Source of the DNA: Rhodopseudomonas sp.
Lineage (GTDB): Bacteria > Pseudomonadota > Alphaproteobacteria > Rhizobiales > Xanthobacteraceae
DNA: 64,000 nucleotides
Reading direction: 5' to 3'
Assembly: GCA_016124795.1 (NCBI GenBank)
Contig: WGNB01000022.1
Location: forward strand, 1 to 64,000
The notes under the pieces are model-generated. The model searched no databases and was not told where the DNA came from. It saw only the letters and a program-made list of their open reading frames with translations. Positions 57,775-63,414 of this stretch are shown here, piece by piece. Position numbers and translations under genes: made by a program. Numbering within the stretch: the first letter of the stretch is position 1; each line of letters opens with the position of its first letter.

Positions 57775-58093
57775 GAGCAAGCCTCCTGAATCACGTTCAG
57801 GCTGCCGCGGCGTCGCTCCCGACCTTCGCCAGTTATCGTTCAGCTCAGGTCATTTCCTGCCACGAGCCTGCGTCGACGCTACCATGAATTGCGGGCGGCC
57901 CGCGTTCACGTTTTCGCGCCCCGGCTGTGTCAGCTCCGTGTCGGTTCCATGCCGGTTCCGGCGCGGCCCGCTCGCGAAGTGTTGACTTGGTCGGCACCGC
58001 CGCCGCTGGCTAAGTCAGCGTCCCGACAACGGCAATCCCGATCTGCTTCCGCGGCGGTTTCAGGAATTTGCGGCAGACAGAGGATTTCCGGCA
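57775..58093. other. Divergent intergenic region, DUF2189 / symporter
   Basis: About 320 bases; no operator, hairpin or extra gene could be supported. It should contain promoters for both flanking genes. Confidence 0.4.
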
Positions 58094-59518
58094 TTGACCG
58101 ACGACGTACAGGCTTATGCGCTGATCGGCGTGACGCTTCTGGTGATCGCCGCGAGCTTCATGATGTCGGGCCGGCACAGCAGCATTGGCGGATTTTTCGA
58201 TGGTCACGACGAGGCCGGCCGGCCGCCCGGCCTGTGGACGCTGGTCCTGAGTCAGGTCACGACCTGGATCTTTGCGCGGTCGCTGTTGAATGCCGCGATC
58301 CTCGGCTACTACTACGGCATCGCCGGCACGCTCGCCTACACCGCCTATTACGCCAGTTTTCTGACCGGCTGGCTGTTCGTCGATGGCATCCGGTTTCGCG
58401 ACGGCGCCGGTTCGATTCACAATTACCTGCGCGTGCGTTTCGGCCGCGTCGGCGTCGGTTGTTTCAATCTGGTGATCGGCCTGCGCCTGCTGTCGGAGGT
58501 CTTCGCCAATCTGCTGGCGGTCGGTTTGATCTTCGATGGCTTGTTGCCGGGCACTCATGCCGGCCAGATCGCCGTGGTCGGTCTGGCGCTGCTCGGCCTC
58601 GGCTACTCCGCGATGGGTGGCCTGCGCGCGTCGCTGCACACCGATGTGATGCAGATGCTGGTGTTCCTGGTTGTCTTCGCGATCACGTTTGGCGCGCTGG
58701 TGTCGCTCGACGGCTTCTCGTTTGCCGCGGTCCTCACCGCGCCGGGGATCGCCGGGCCGGGGCCCGGCTGGATGCTGCTCGCGGTCGCCGGACTACAGGT
58801 GTTTTCCTATCCGGCGCATGATCCGGTGATGACGGATCGCGGATTTCTCGCCGACCGCGCCACGACGGCGCGGAGCTTCCTGCACGCCTTCTGGATTTCG
58901 GCGCTTTGCATCTTCGGCTTCGGTCTGCTCGGCGTTCATGCCGGGCTGGTGGCGTCGCCGGGCGAAGCCATGCAGGCGGTCTGGGTGCGTCTGTTTCCGC
59001 CGGCGGTTCTGATCTGTCTCAACGCCGCGCTGATCATCTCGGCGCTTTCGACGCTGGACAGCGCGCTGGCGTCGGCGGCGCGGCTGGCCATTCGCGACAT
59101 GGGACTGGCGGCGGCAACAGTCGCCAATGGCCGGATCGCGATGGCCTTGTTCATGCTGGGCGGCGTCATCATGCTGCTCGCCAACGTCACCAATCTTTAC
59201 GCCGCGACGGCGGTGTCCGGCACCGCGTCGATGTTTCTGGCGCCGGTGCTGTTCTTCAACATTCTTGGCACGGCGCGGGGGGTGCCGCTGTGGTCTTATG
59301 CGGTGAGTTTCGCGGCGTCGTTCGGCGGCGCGTTGCTTTATTTGTTTATCGAGGCGCAGGCCGATTGGGCGATGGCCTTGATCGGGGGCGTGCAAAAATA
59401 CACCGCGCTGTTCTGGATCTGCGCGGTCGCGATGATCGTCGGCAACGCGGCCTTTGCCGTCGGTCTGGCGTTACGTCCGGCGGCGTCGCAACGCGCGAGA
59501 GCGGCGCGCTCCGCGTAA
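58094..59518 (+). CDS. Sodium:solute symporter family protein
   Basis: Inner-membrane secondary transporter of 474 residues with about 12-13 helices, SSF fold. Segments such as YYYGIAGTLAYTAYYASFLTGWLFVD, LGYSAMGGLRASLHTDVMQMLVF (the typical family core) and ALIISALSTLDSALASAARLAIRD are characteristic. Start is TTG at 58094 with AGAGGA nine bases upstream. A partner histidine kinase or small subunit is not adjacent, so a standalone uptake system is likely. The substrate is unknown. Confidence 0.88.
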   Translation: MTDDVQAYALIGVTLLVIAASFMMSGRHSSIGGFFDGHDEAGRPPGLWTLVLSQVTTWIFARSLLNAAILGYYYGIAGTLAYTAYYASFLTGWLFVDGIRFRDGAGSIHNYLRVRFGRVGVGCFNLVIGLRLLSEVFANLLAVGLIFDGLLPGTHAGQIAVVGLALLGLGYSAMGGLRASLHTDVMQMLVFLVVFAITFGALVSLDGFSFAAVLTAPGIAGPGPGWMLLAVAGLQVFSYPAHDPVMTDRGFLADRATTARSFLHAFWISALCIFGFGLLGVHAGLVASPGEAMQAVWVRLFPPAVLICLNAALIISALSTLDSALASAARLAIRDMGLAAATVANGRIAMALFMLGGVIMLLANVTNLYAATAVSGTASMFLAPVLFFNILGTARGVPLWSYAVSFAASFGGALLYLFIEAQADWAMALIGGVQKYTALFWICAVAMIVGNAAFAVGLALRPAASQRARAARSA

Positions 59519-59760
59519 CGACAGCTCCAGTTTCTTGTCATCCCCGCGCAGGCGGGGTGTTGTTGTAGGCCGCGACGATGCTGTGGAAGCGCGCGTTCGG
59601 CAGAGCGGCAAGGTCGGCCTTGCGCGGCGAGGCCATGGCCGCACACCTCAAGCATCGTCATTCCGGGGCTGGCGAAGCCAGAACCCGGAGTCCAGACGGG
59701 TTGTCATGCGCTTCTGGATTCCGGGTTCGCGCTTGCAGCGCGCCCCGGCATAACGGCGAA
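59519..59760. other. Gene-free stretch with repeats after symporter
   Basis: Contains a partial CCCGCGCAGGCGGGG element near 59542-59558 and a complete palindromic repeat at 59658-59757. No gene. Confidence 0.5.
59658..59757. repeat. Palindromic repeat, same family as 46982-47097
   Basis: CGTCATTCCGGGGCTGGC at the left, AACCCGGAGTCCAGA, then inverted TCTGGATTCCGGGTTCGCG and CGCCCCGGCATAACG at the right. Long imperfect palindrome with internal hairpins. Confidence 0.75.
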
Positions 59761-59769
59761 TTAAATTTC

Positions 59770-59798
59770 TTGACAACATTCCTATATAGGACTATAAG
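59770..59798 (+). promoter_or_regulatory. Near-consensus sigma-70 promoter
   Basis: TTGACA (59770-59775), exactly 17 bases of spacer, TATAAG (59793-59798). Such a perfect -35 with optimal spacing is the clearest promoter in the window. Transcription would start near 59805 and read into the hairpin-rich block. Confidence 0.75.
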
Positions 59799-59804
59799 CA
59801 CGCC

Positions 59805-60307
59805 ATCCCGCCCCATCGAAGGGGTATCTGCGCAAGCATCTTCAGATGCGGGGCGGGGAGCGGTGGCCGGAACGGGGGCGTCGGAGATGCGGCGCAACTT
59901 CCCCCTCCGGCGGTCCAAGCCGCATCGTCCCGGCGCGCCGACCGCGCGTCGCCGGGTCCCGCTGATGGCGATCTGCAAGCACGGTCAGAGTGCCCGATAT
60001 GAACGCCTGGACCCATAGCGGTGGATAGGCCGGCCTGCCGTAAGGGAGGCGGCCTGAAACGGGACGTCCACCGGGGGCGATACGGAGCAAACCTGACAAA
60101 CACCGCGCGCGGGACGCCAGGATGATGGCGGACTTGCGGCACTATCACCACTCGACAAGCCTCGATGTCGCGAGGCGTCGAGGCCCGTGGGTCCTTCGGA
60201 CCCCTGGCGTTCCGCGCGCCCTTCGTTTCCGGCAAGGGCGACTGACTGAAGACGACGGCGTTCCCCGCGCCGGTCAAGAACAGGGGCGGCGGAGCCATGC
60301 CTGTTTT
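59805..60307 (+). ncRNA. Candidate structured RNA of about 500 nt
   Basis: Block without a credible gene, directly after a strong promoter. It is built of consecutive inverted repeats: CCCGCCCC/GGGGCGGG (59807-59857), GATGCGGC/GCCGCATC (59886-59926), CCCGGCG/CGCCGGG (59929-59956), AGGCCG/CGGCCT (60027-60055), CCTCGA/TCGAGG (60160-60183), GGGTCC/GGACCC (60189-60203) and AACAGG/CCTGTT (60279-60305) before TTTT. It lacks the conserved signatures I know of RNase P RNA (GAGGAAAGTCC) and tmRNA (tag sequence, T-loop). Identity and exact ends are unknown. Short open frames on both strands look like shadows. Confidence 0.55.
60279..60307 (+). terminator. Terminator-like hairpin at 3' end of structured block
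   Basis: AACAGG (60279-60284) pairs with CCTGTT (60300-60305) around an inner GGC/GCC pair, ending in TTTT. Confidence 0.45.
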
Positions 60308-60389
60308 GGGTCGCATCCGCTTAAGACGAACCAGACCTAAAGAGGAGCCATGCGATCCACGCAGCGCTGGCCCCAGTCCGCTGTCGACG

Positions 60390-60403
60390 TTGACATAGGT
60401 CAA
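60390..60403. promoter_or_regulatory. FNR/FixK-type box upstream of DUF6455 gene
   Basis: TTGAC ATAG GTCAA is a perfect inverted repeat matching TTGA-N6-TCAA, 67 bases before the ATG. Suggests oxygen- or nitric-oxide-responsive control. Confidence 0.55.
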
Positions 60404-60430
60404 AGGCGGCCGACGGCGATCGGTATCGAA

Positions 60431-60454
60431 TGTAACCAAATAATCGGGGTTACA
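60431..60454. promoter_or_regulatory. Perfect inverted repeat TGTAACC-N10-GGTTACA
   Basis: Arms at 60431-60437 and 60448-60454, ending 16 bases before the DUF6455 start and overlapping its probable transcription start. Could be an operator or an mRNA hairpin near the ribosome binding site. Confidence 0.5.
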
Positions 60455-60469
60455 TTGAGGGGAATCGCC

Positions 60470-60886
60470 ATGTCCTTATCCGTTGCCAAATCATCCCGTT
60501 CTCCGCTCGCGGTCATGGCGCAATGGTGGCGCGACTGGACCGGCGGTCCGGTCAGTCAGGACAGCGACGAGGCGGCGCGCATCGCGCATGATGTCAATGT
60601 CACCAGTTTCGAACTTGAACGGCTGAACCGCCTCGGGCCGCACGCCGCCGACCTGATGGAGGTGCGCATGGCGCAACTCGATCTCGACCGCGACGAAGTC
60701 GCCCGTCTTGAGCCCGGCGTATTGCAGGACATGCAACGGGTCTGCTCGTTCTGCGCCAGCCACAAGCGTTGCAGCCGCGACGTCGCGCGCGATCCGGCCG
60801 ATACGATCTGGAAAAGCTATTGCCCCAACATCGGGACCTTCGAAGCGCTCGACGCGCGGCCGTGGGAAACGCGCCGCGAGTGGTAG
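60470..60886 (+). CDS. DUF6455 family protein with four-cysteine C-terminus
   Basis: Protein of 138 residues without signal peptide. The C-terminal DUF6455-like pattern VCSFCASHKRC...SYCPN gives Cys92, Cys95, Cys101 and Cys118, probably a metal or Fe-S site. The helical N-terminal half has DLMEVRMAQLDLDRDEVARLEPGVLQDMQR. The ATG at 60470 follows AGGGGA at six bases. An in-frame ATG at 60350 also has AGAGGAG before it, which would give a 178-residue protein, but that would place the FNR-type box inside the gene. Function unknown; redox or metal role suggested by the regulatory site. Confidence 0.82.
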   Translation: MSLSVAKSSRSPLAVMAQWWRDWTGGPVSQDSDEAARIAHDVNVTSFELERLNRLGPHAADLMEVRMAQLDLDRDEVARLEPGVLQDMQRVCSFCASHKRCSRDVARDPADTIWKSYCPNIGTFEALDARPWETRREW

Positions 60887-60937
60887 CGCGTCGCCGGCGA
60901 TCGCGCCGTGGAGCACAGCCTTGAAGCACATATGAAA

Positions 60938-60961
60938 ATGGCCGGGATCGCTCCCGGCCAT
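60938..60961. terminator. Bidirectional terminator between DUF6455 gene and rpoH
   Basis: ATGGCCGGGA (60938-60947) and TCCCGGCCAT (60952-60961) form a perfect 10-bp stem with a 4-nt loop. It is followed by TTTTCAT on the minus strand and TCTTATTC on the plus strand, between convergent genes. Confidence 0.85.
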
Positions 60962-60989
60962 TCTTATTCGATGATGGGTTTCGCGCCGG

Positions 60990-61913
60990 TCAGTGCATCG
61001 ACGCCTGCGCGGCAATCGCCGCCGGCTGGGCCTTGGGCTGTTCGAGCGCGGCGATCGACGACTTGACCGCCTTCTGCACCTTCTCGAAAGCCCGCACCTC
61101 GATCTGGCGCACGCGCTCGCGCGACACGCCGAACTCGGCGGCCAGGTCTTCCAGCGTCACCGGATCGTCGGCCAGGCGGCGCGCCTCGAAGATCCGCCGT
61201 TCGCGGTCGTTGAGCACGTCGAGCGCCGAGATCAGCGCGTGATGGCGGTTGTCGCTTTCCTCGCTGTCGGCGAGAACGCGCTCCTGGCTCGGCGCATCGT
61301 CGACCAGCCAGTCCTGCCATTCGCCGCTTTCGCCGTCGTCACGGATCGAGGCGTTGAGCGAGGCGTCGCCGCCGAGCCGGCGGTTCATGTCGACGACATC
61401 CTGCTCAGTGACGCCGAGCCGGGTCGCGATCAGTGACACCTGATCGGGCTTCAGATCGCCTTCTTCCAGCGCCGAGATCTTGCTCTTGGCCTTGCGCAGG
61501 TTGAAGAACAGCTTCTTCTGGTTGGCGGTGGTGCCCATCTTCACCAGCGACCACGAACGCAGGATGTACTCCTGGATCGCCGCCTTGATCCACCACATCG
61601 CATAGGTGGCGAGCCGGAAGCCCTTTTCCGGTTCGAAGCGCTTGACCGCCTGCATCAGGCCGACATTGCCTTCCGAGACGACTTCGGAAATCGGCAGGCC
61701 GTAACCGCGATAGCCCATGGCGATCTTGGCGACGAGACGGAGATGGCTGGTGACGAGCTGGTGCGCGGCTTCACGATCGCCGTGCTCGCGCCATTGGCGC
61801 GCCAGTGTGTATTCCTGCTTCGGCTCCAGCATCGGGAACCGGCGGATTTCTTCGAGGTAATGAGACAGTCCAGTTTCGGCACTCAGTGCCGGCATCGTGG
61901 CAGAACGGGCCAT
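60990..61913 (-). CDS. rpoH: RNA polymerase heat-shock sigma factor RpoH
   Basis: Sigma-32 of 307 residues directing RNA polymerase to heat-shock promoters. Region 2 is LVTSHLRLVAKIAMGYRGYGLPISEVVSEGNVGLMQAVKRFEP, followed by the tryptophan-rich TYAMWWIKAAIQEYILRSWSLVK. The RpoH box QKKLFFNLR (132-140) is diagnostic. Region 4 helix-turn-helix is near 255-285 (VTLEDLAAEFGVSRERVRQIE). The ATG at 61913 has AAGGAGGG eight bases upstream. The 5' region contains a CtrA-type TTAA-N7-TTAAC site. Several rhizobia have multiple rpoH copies; which one this is cannot be told. Confidence 0.95.
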   Translation of the reverse strand: MARSATMPALSAETGLSHYLEEIRRFPMLEPKQEYTLARQWREHGDREAAHQLVTSHLRLVAKIAMGYRGYGLPISEVVSEGNVGLMQAVKRFEPEKGFRLATYAMWWIKAAIQEYILRSWSLVKMGTTANQKKLFFNLRKAKSKISALEEGDLKPDQVSLIATRLGVTEQDVVDMNRRLGGDASLNASIRDDGESGEWQDWLVDDAPSQERVLADSEESDNRHHALISALDVLNDRERRIFEARRLADDPVTLEDLAAEFGVSRERVRQIEVRAFEKVQKAVKSSIAALEQPKAQPAAIAAQASMH

Positions 61914-62343
61914 GGTAGCGCCCTCCTTACATGAATGCCCCCGACAAGTCGGCGGGCGGTTGTCACCGTCGCTCCCCGAGCCGACGGTGCGCATCCTGAT
62001 GATCGCGACGCTTCATCGCGAGTCTTCATCGCTGCTGCAGCATACTGGTCGGGGCGGGGGAGTGGAAGCAATCCGCCGTCACGAGGTCGTGACCCAGCCA
62101 TGCAGCCGTAAGCGATTGTTGTTGTGCGGTTATTTTTGACAGGCAGGTCCGGTTAACGGGGCTTTAACCGGCCGGAATATCACGATAACGCCGCAATTGG
62201 ACCGATCGTTCCAGATGGAACGCGGTTTCCGGGCGGGAATCGATGTGCTGTGGGAAGTCACTCACGGTAAATGGGGTGGCCGGCCGGTTTTTCAAGGGCG
62301 CCATTGCCGCCGCCCGGCAAAAAGCCTCGTTTCGGCGCGTGTG
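61914..62343. other. Intergenic region upstream of rpoH
   Basis: 430 bases between the rluA-type gene and rpoH. Contains a CtrA-type box at 62153-62167 and a GCGATGAAG-like sequence recurring two to three times near 62010-62035. No gene. Confidence 0.5.
62153..62167. promoter_or_regulatory. CtrA-type box upstream of rpoH
   Basis: TTAA CGGGGCT TTAA followed by C: full match to TTAA-N7-TTAAC, also an inverted repeat GGTTAA/TTAACC. It lies 240 bases upstream of the rpoH start. Confidence 0.5.
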
Positions 62344-63414
62344 TCAGGCTTTCGCCCGGAGATGATCGATCAGCGCCTGAATATCGGCCGGTGGCTCGGA
62401 CTCGAAGCGCAGGAATTCGCCGGTCGTCGGGTGGGTGAAGCCGAGCACCGCGGCGTGCAGTGCCTGCCGGCCGAGCGCGTCGAGCGCGGCGCGTGTTTTC
62501 GGGCCCAATTGCCCGGCTTTGCTTTTGAAGCCGGTGGCATAAGTTTCGTCGCCCATGATCGGGTGGCCAATATGGGCGAGATGAACCCGGATCTGGTGGG
62601 TGCGGCCGGTCTCCAGCATGCAGGCGATCAGGCTGGCGATCGTCTTGCCCTCCGGCGCCTCGGCGGCTCTTTTGCCGGCGCGCTTGCCGAGCTTGATGTC
62701 GTCCGGCGCCAGATAGGTCTCGCGCAATTCCCAATGCGTTACGGCCGGCCGGCCATCCTCGCGCACGGCGCGCTTTTCGCGGCTGTGCGGATTGCGGTCA
62801 AGCGCGGCATCGATGACGCCGCTCGTGCGCGATGGCGCGCCCCAGACCACGGCGAGATAGCCGCGCTCGAGTTCACTTTCCAGCTTGTCGGCGAATTGTT
62901 TGGACAAGGCGTGATGGGCGCGGTCGTTCTTGGCCACGACCATCAGGCCGGTGGTGTCCTTGTCGAGCCGGTGCACGATGCCCGGCCGCTTGACGCCGCC
63001 GATGCCGGACAGGCTGTCGCCGCAATGGGCGATCAGCGCGTTGACCAGCGTGCCGGTGGCGTGCCCGGCCGAGGGGTGGACGACGAGCCCCTTCGGCTTG
63101 TCGATGACGATCAGGTCGTCGTCCTCGTAGACGATGGTCAGCGGGATCGCTTCGGCCCGCGGCTTGGCCTCTTCCGGCGGCGGCAGGGTGACGGTGAGGA
63201 TATCGCCGGATTTGACCTGGGCCGACGGATCAAGGATCGTGCGCGCCGCAGCGGGGGCGTGCGTCGGCTCTTGAACCGCCACCTGGCCGTCGAGGATCAG
63301 GGCCTTGAGCCGGGACCGCGACAGCGTTGGGATTCGCGCCGCCAGCACGCGGTCGAGCCTCGCGCCGGCGTCTTCCGGGGCCACGGTGATGGTTTCGCTG
63401 GCGCTGTCTGTCAT
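62344..63414 (-). CDS. RluA family pseudouridine synthase (RluC/RluD type)
   Basis: Isomerises specific uridines in 23S rRNA to pseudouridine. 356 residues: N-terminal S4 RNA-binding domain (about 17-75, ARLDRVLAARIPTLSRSRLKALILDGQV) and catalytic domain with HRLDKDTTGLMVVAKN, catalytic Asp151. A basic insertion (LGKRAGKRAAEAPEGK) occurs before the conserved LETGRTHQIRVH motif. Faces a divergent small membrane protein gene; the pairing with rpoH on the same strand downstream is common in alphaproteobacteria. Confidence 0.94.
   Translation of the reverse strand: MTDSASETITVAPEDAGARLDRVLAARIPTLSRSRLKALILDGQVAVQEPTHAPAAARTILDPSAQVKSGDILTVTLPPPEEAKPRAEAIPLTIVYEDDDLIVIDKPKGLVVHPSAGHATGTLVNALIAHCGDSLSGIGGVKRPGIVHRLDKDTTGLMVVAKNDRAHHALSKQFADKLESELERGYLAVVWGAPSRTSGVIDAALDRNPHSREKRAVREDGRPAVTHWELRETYLAPDDIKLGKRAGKRAAEAPEGKTIASLIACMLETGRTHQIRVHLAHIGHPIMGDETYATGFKSKAGQLGPKTRAALDALGRQALHAAVLGFTHPTTGEFLRFESEPPADIQALIDHLRAKA

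Follow-up and report, generated by a model that had tools for sequence, protein, structure and literature searches.

To our knowledge, bacteria have few large structured RNAs. GOLLD, ROOL and OLE are of unclear function, GOLLD and ROOL being often linked to prophages, and group II introns are large structured RNAs that occur in several copies; models of all of these are present in Rfam. The HEARO or IscB omega RNA and other transposon guide RNAs are structured and have many copies per genome. In the relevant passage of PMC12286853, GOLLD, ROOL and OLE figure as large ornate bacterial RNAs. The nearest literature on the bacteria related to our organism (PMC5082802, PMC4842269) concerns, in its pertinent parts, other RNAs. 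Among these are Br-REP1, Br-REP2 and the BjsR sRNAs of Bradyrhizobium, repeated intergenic elements and sRNAs of related bacteria, and the corresponding passages of PMC5082802 present the Br-REPs as short palindromes and BjsR on blots with 60-160 nt markers.

The RNA described here lies in a window of 64,000 nucleotides, the whole stretch of DNA that was analysed, from Rhodopseudomonas sp. Like GOLLD, ROOL and OLE, its family consists of large noncoding RNAs with extensive conserved structure, but it is matched by none of their covariance models (assuming that Rfam includes them), it occupies up to 54 places per chromosome with its modules mixed and, in contrast to the prophage link of GOLLD and ROOL, no phage record matched it. 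With the HEARO or IscB omega RNA it shares structure and many copies per genome, whereas it has no Rfam match; the comparison of neighbours and the nine flanking proteins that were run gave no nuclease or insertion-sequence gene common to the loci. It resembles group II introns in being a large structured RNA in several copies, but has its own promoter and matches no intron or domain model. Judging from the descriptions of Br-REPs and BjsR in these parts of PMC5082802, it is set apart from them by a far larger RNA body (499 nt).

When window positions 58000-62500 were searched against Rfam 15 at E-values up to 10, the RNA itself had no match, the two weak ones obtained falling elsewhere, and none of 18 relative loci gave a family match to the RNA at gathering score. 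The terC RNA (RF03067) scored above gathering at 291-344 on the minus strand of locus L025, near another copy, and is unrelated. An earlier note on this DNA had seen no sign of RNase P or tmRNA, and rightly so: no RNase P covariance model matched the window RNA and ARAGORN found neither tRNA nor tmRNA there. The open-access papers searched contained no description among the matches listed and none of eleven literal family strings. As far as Rfam 15 and these papers go, the family is apparently undescribed.

Fold and covariation of the RNA

The RNA body extends on the + strand over 59805..60303, from a conserved ATCCCG start, six bases past the -10 hexamer of the promoter, to a conserved CTG end. 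Outside this interval the alignment of 38 flanked copies diverges, while 33 full bodies align within it, and the match of R1, our covariance model of the 5' domain, begins at 59805 as well; R2, the model of the 3' domain, was built from a more diverse set. Positions 59797-60312 fold at -267.8 kcal/mol (z -3.2), a stability reached by none of 100 dinucleotide shuffles, and the stems named in the earlier note do exist, so that its description as a hairpin-rich block is confirmed.

The RNAalifold consensus was obtained from 33 of the 38 flanked copies (alignment A2, without L013, L014, L037, L060 and L061, which are truncated, contain N or miss the usual 3' part). It comprises 138 pairs, 48 of them changed on both sides, and 90.9% of its cells are paired; with slid partners the figure is 42-47%, and none of 500 shuffles equalled the observed covariation. 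The 3' domain was further compared in 50 sequences from several genera and families (alignment A3), namely the window and 49 of 53 non-redundant hits out of 72 before redundancy removal; left out were L110, L235 and two false hits, a second site each in L077 and L139. Here 86.4% of cells are paired, double changes occur in 26 of 42 pairs and again no shuffle out of 500 was as high. Both structures were scored on the alignments that they were derived from, which favours them.

The 5' domain (59806..59858, A2 helices 1-3, 100% of cells paired) consists of an outer stem CCCGCCCC/GGGGCGGG around a GCATC/GATGC hairpin and a pseudoknot loop. The earlier note had proposed that these two stems compete as alternative folds, but the outer stem encloses the hairpin; the two are nested and can form together. 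The next helix, P1, pairs GCGGTG at 59860..59865 with CACCGC at 60101..60106 (98.5% of cells in A2) and is almost invariant; other genera show G-U changes and, in L118, a single compensatory insertion. It is followed by an arm GCCGGA/TCCGGC with an inner GCGTCG/CGGCGC stem (59866..59911, helices 5-7) and by the core (59912..60093, helices 8-14), in which GGT(CCAAG)CCG and CGG(AGCAA)ACC form a conserved internal loop and enclose further arms, among them CGGTGGA/TCCACCG at 60019-60025 and 60067-60073. We also considered a competition of two CGGTGG strands for a single CCACCG, and rejected it, each having its own partner. The 3' domain (60107..60218, alignment A3) contains the long stem CGCGGGACGCC/GGCGTTCCGCG and a variable, covarying hairpin, and the body closes with an exchangeable 3' module (60225..60303, A2 helices 21-22), a GGCG..CGCC hairpin with a conserved end, for which alternative forms were seen by eye among the copies. 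The weak helices of A2 are 12, 14, 19 and 20, with 69-77% of cells paired (77% for both 12 and 14).

A pseudoknot joins the loop strand of the 5' domain (before GGG) to the strand immediately 3' of the long stem: in the window, GAAGGG at 59818..59823 has CCCTTC at 60219..60224 as its partner. We tested this pairing in 88 distinct copies. At the five positions beyond GGG/CCC, 72.7% of the cells are paired, permuted partners giving 59.2% (sd 1.7), and none of 2000 permutations was as high; mis-anchored rows (L289, L196, L221 and L228 among them) were retained in this test, which lowered the observed pairing. At position 2, G-C (56) alternates with A-U (18), and at position 3 all of C-G, A-U, G-C and U-A are used, while positions 4 and 5 are weaker (62% and 44% paired). 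Six pairs, GGG/CCC counted, are reached in 77 of 105 copies. Sequence comparison thus shows for the + strand a predicted fold of several domains, joined by a long-range pseudoknot and kept across many genera. A local hairpin of at least six pairs may also begin with the CCC strand. It is possible in 30 of 105 copies, compared with 16.2 (sd 3.0) when the downstream sequence is swapped, and 26 of the 105 allow both pairings. That the CCCTY strand, pairing with the 5' loop or locally, acts as a switch in a minority of copies is only suggested by these numbers.

Promoter and occurrence of the copies

The promoter of the window copy, TTGACA at 59770-59775 and TATAAG at 59793-59798 on the + strand with a 17-nt spacer, is of sigma-70 type and is the sole site with 11 of 12 matches when both strands of the window are scanned, so the earlier note was correct in calling it the best of the window. 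A stricter scan of 58000-62500 was empty because T was required as the last -10 base. At the corresponding place, 69 of 86 copies have at least 9 of 12 matches compared to 0.6% of 1720 random positions, in a tally where related and truncated copies count separately and a few starts are misplaced. In genome G275, which has the highest copy number, 40 of the 54 copies were retrieved and 34 scored, and none of these has as many as 8 of 12 matches to a promoter of this type, and in G253 6 of 11 do; many copies there may therefore be silent or rely on another promoter. At the other end, the hairpin with TTTT noted earlier is present in the window copy, but the T-run after the last hairpin is not common to the copies aligned with their flanks, which have no conserved terminator, and it is thus a candidate terminator at most.

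Several further sequence features surround the copies. A REP-like palindrome (59658-59754, arms 59675-59696 and 59713-59734), Br-REP2-like by description, lies directly upstream of the window promoter, and L060 and L061 have a stretch similar to this region upstream of their RNA copies. Just 5' of the -35 region, an AT-rich motif, AAAATATTCC or GGAATAAATTCC, was seen by eye in several genera (L072, L073, several G275 and G253 copies, L220, L239 and L245) and is perhaps an UP element or operator. Conserved stretches with CCCGACGGGCAAATCA stand upstream of the RNA copies in G275.

The search with DNA of 59765-60325 gave a match in 41 of 100 genomes of relatives, including 35 of 43 from the window's genus, and at least 32 matching pieces in the window's own draft genome, many of them at contig ends. 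R1 found the family in 53 of 149 genomes of the taxonomic family (23 of 47 genera) and 5 of 249 genomes of the order, and R2 in 75 of the 149 (26 of 47 genera) and 18 of the 249 (9 of 112 genera), being sparse in the other families of the order. Outside the order R2 found none: the single positive genome in a draw of 240 from the class is the window's own, and all 6 in a draw of 200 from the phylum belong to the same order. The own genome is included in every one of these tallies, and the strict filters of the large searches miss weak matches. A pattern scan of named genomes added 60 stretches, 41 of which are matched by R1 at E<=0.01; of the 19 others seven were examined, and by eye six have the same RNA layout (two from Ancylobacter, two from Chelatococcus, one each from Hansschlegelia and Methylopila). 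A Sphingomonas stretch (L229) was rejected as a member, having no RNA around the pattern match.

Within genomes the family is repeated. Raw match counts cover both strands, and distinct places were counted separately: the R2 matches amount to 54 places in G275 (89 matches), 20 in G253 (39), 17 in G355 (33), 28 in G351 (28) and 13 (23), as a lower bound, in the own draft genome. Among the matches listed, there are at least 17 places in G100, 10 in G004, 9 in G033, 5 in G324, 4 each in G350 and G417 and 3 in G010. Eleven genomes of 1-4 contigs have 3 to 54 places each, the low counts being lower bounds from the matches listed, and at least 56 of the 75 carrier genomes have three or more R2 matches, both strands counted. 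Gene overlap is absent in 63 of 69 copies (77 copies of at least 330 nt minus eight without a callable neighbour on one side; neighbour genes were called by a simple codon-position rule), and on this comparison the copies are classed as intergenic.

Readings of the dispersed unit

We are highly confident that the RNA family is real, structured and under selection. The earlier suggestion of an undescribed structured RNA is supported by the spread over genera, the covariation, the conserved promoter and the absence of both an Rfam match and a coding signal, and the checks proposed with it, against Rfam, for covarying stems and for conservation beyond close strains, came out in its favour. Its idea of a single candidate locus has to give way to that of a dispersed multi-copy family. 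On balance, and with some reserve, we favour the reading that the window locus is one gene of such a family of large structured noncoding RNAs, resident and acting in trans. The housekeeping RNA polymerase would make a free-standing transcript, the folded RNA would work in trans as a protein- or RNA-binding scaffold, perhaps making contact via the conserved CCAAG/AGCAA internal loop, and several gene copies would give dosage. DNA duplication would produce the copies and gene conversion would make some of their sequence uniform again, accounting for mosaic copies in a genome such as G355, in which the 5', central and 3' modules occur in mixed combinations. Counting against this explanation are the copy number of up to 54, more than dosage readily explains, the low promoter scores in G275, the turnover of sites and the lack of a conserved terminator.

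Some weight attaches to a selfish dispersed element, the fold of which would be selected because it helps the element to propagate, using a protein provided in trans, and not for any service to the host; we regard this as the main competitor, if a rather doubtful one. It is favoured by the 3 to 54 places in the eleven genomes of 1-4 contigs, by the many own-genome pieces at contig ends, by the degenerate promoters of G275 and by the flanks and sites of the copies. L072 and L073, from one genome, are 97.2% identical from -53 to +523 and have unrelated flanks; in another genome, the copies are alike up to 221 bases upstream of the RNA; and generally within a genome the RNA and a variable upstream stretch align, with divergence beyond. 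From such boundaries, the duplicated unit is judged to be promoter plus RNA body. Seven relatives that keep rpoH beside a DUF6455-type gene, as at the window's site, have no RNA copy within about 1.5 kb on either side, and by such comparisons site occupancy is seen to turn over between relatives. However, some copies do sit at orthologous sites by their flanking proteins, several between species and one across genera: this last is common to L004, L006, L065, L145 and, in another genus, L160, and Pfam finds Cpn10 beside it in L160 and Cpn60 in L065, so groES-groEL adjoins the copy in two genera. Within genus g59, 5 of 20 G253 sites are orthologous to a G275 site (flanks of at least 89% protein identity; 40 of the 54 G275 sites were read). 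Also against a selfish element, no inverted repeat of at least 12 nt joins the ends of the unit as in a MITE or transposon remnant, all those in 59500-60500 being upstream of it, and copying from the transcript would lose the promoter, yet the promoter is in the duplicated unit. Plasmid or phage carriage was rejected, as none of 72,556 plasmid and 50,697 phage records matched (records near the window's genome were possibly excluded). Insertion associated with tRNA genes was rejected too: among five tRNAs near the scanned loci, a single one, at L123, is adjacent. With the window copy close to rpoH and other copies beside groES-groEL, a link to heat shock suggests itself, but may be chance.

A DNA-level repeat, that is, a REP-like or chromosome-organising site in which the fold is merely palindromic DNA, would account for intergenic, dispersed copies, for the REP-like palindrome upstream of the window copy and for the orientation of the G275 copies, 38 of 54 of which run in the direction of replication, provided that coordinate 1 is the origin. 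We nevertheless consider it improbable. Long-range pairs and the pseudoknot covary, the promoter is kept in most copies tested, and stem positions accept G-U much more readily than A-C (326:85 for A3, 557:121 for the 33 copies), a ratio of 3.8-4.6 compared to 1.3-2.5 with slid partners. This excess favours selection on the + strand as RNA, an assignment that agrees with the far lower scores of R2 on the opposite strand in G275 (never above 40.2 bits, where the + strand has 54.8-89).

The window copy stands 5' of a co-oriented DUF6455-type gene (20.3 bits against PF20056, below the gathering score of 23.7), as a cis-acting leader or attenuator of that gene would. Upstream of the gene are also TTGACATAGGTCAA at 60390-60403, which we take to resemble a FixK/FNR-type box, and a palindrome ATGTAACC-N10-GGTTACAT at 60430-60455. 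Yet the downstream gene is co-oriented in only 36 of the 69 copies (the upstream gene in 48), and the DUF6455-type genes of the seven syntenic relatives have no copy upstream. We therefore find a leader function very improbable, and the tie to the DUF6455 gene raised in the earlier note proved to be no consistent link. That the locus is a shadow of a protein-coding gene, as its long open frames might suggest, is the least credible reading, since 521 of 577 indel runs relative to the window copy have lengths not divisible by three and none of the six frames is kept (no frame stays open in more than 3 of 33 aligned copies), just as the earlier note had it in seeing no gene in the block.

Going further than the trans-acting RNA gene that we favour, we tentatively put forward, as a possibility somewhat short of even, that the family represents a new class of element: a large pseudoknotted RNA with a selected fold, at up to 54 places, with exchangeable modules and possibly a switch, which would be either a high-dosage host RNA or an RNA-centred repeat. 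In any case, this RNA family is frequent among the relatives of Bradyrhizobium, a large group of bacteria that live in soil or with plants. It is repeated in most carriers and, in most of the copies tested outside the genus with the highest copy number, has a recognisable promoter; therefore it should be easy to detect and to delete. The question that it raises is why one chromosome keeps up to dozens of copies of so intricate an RNA.
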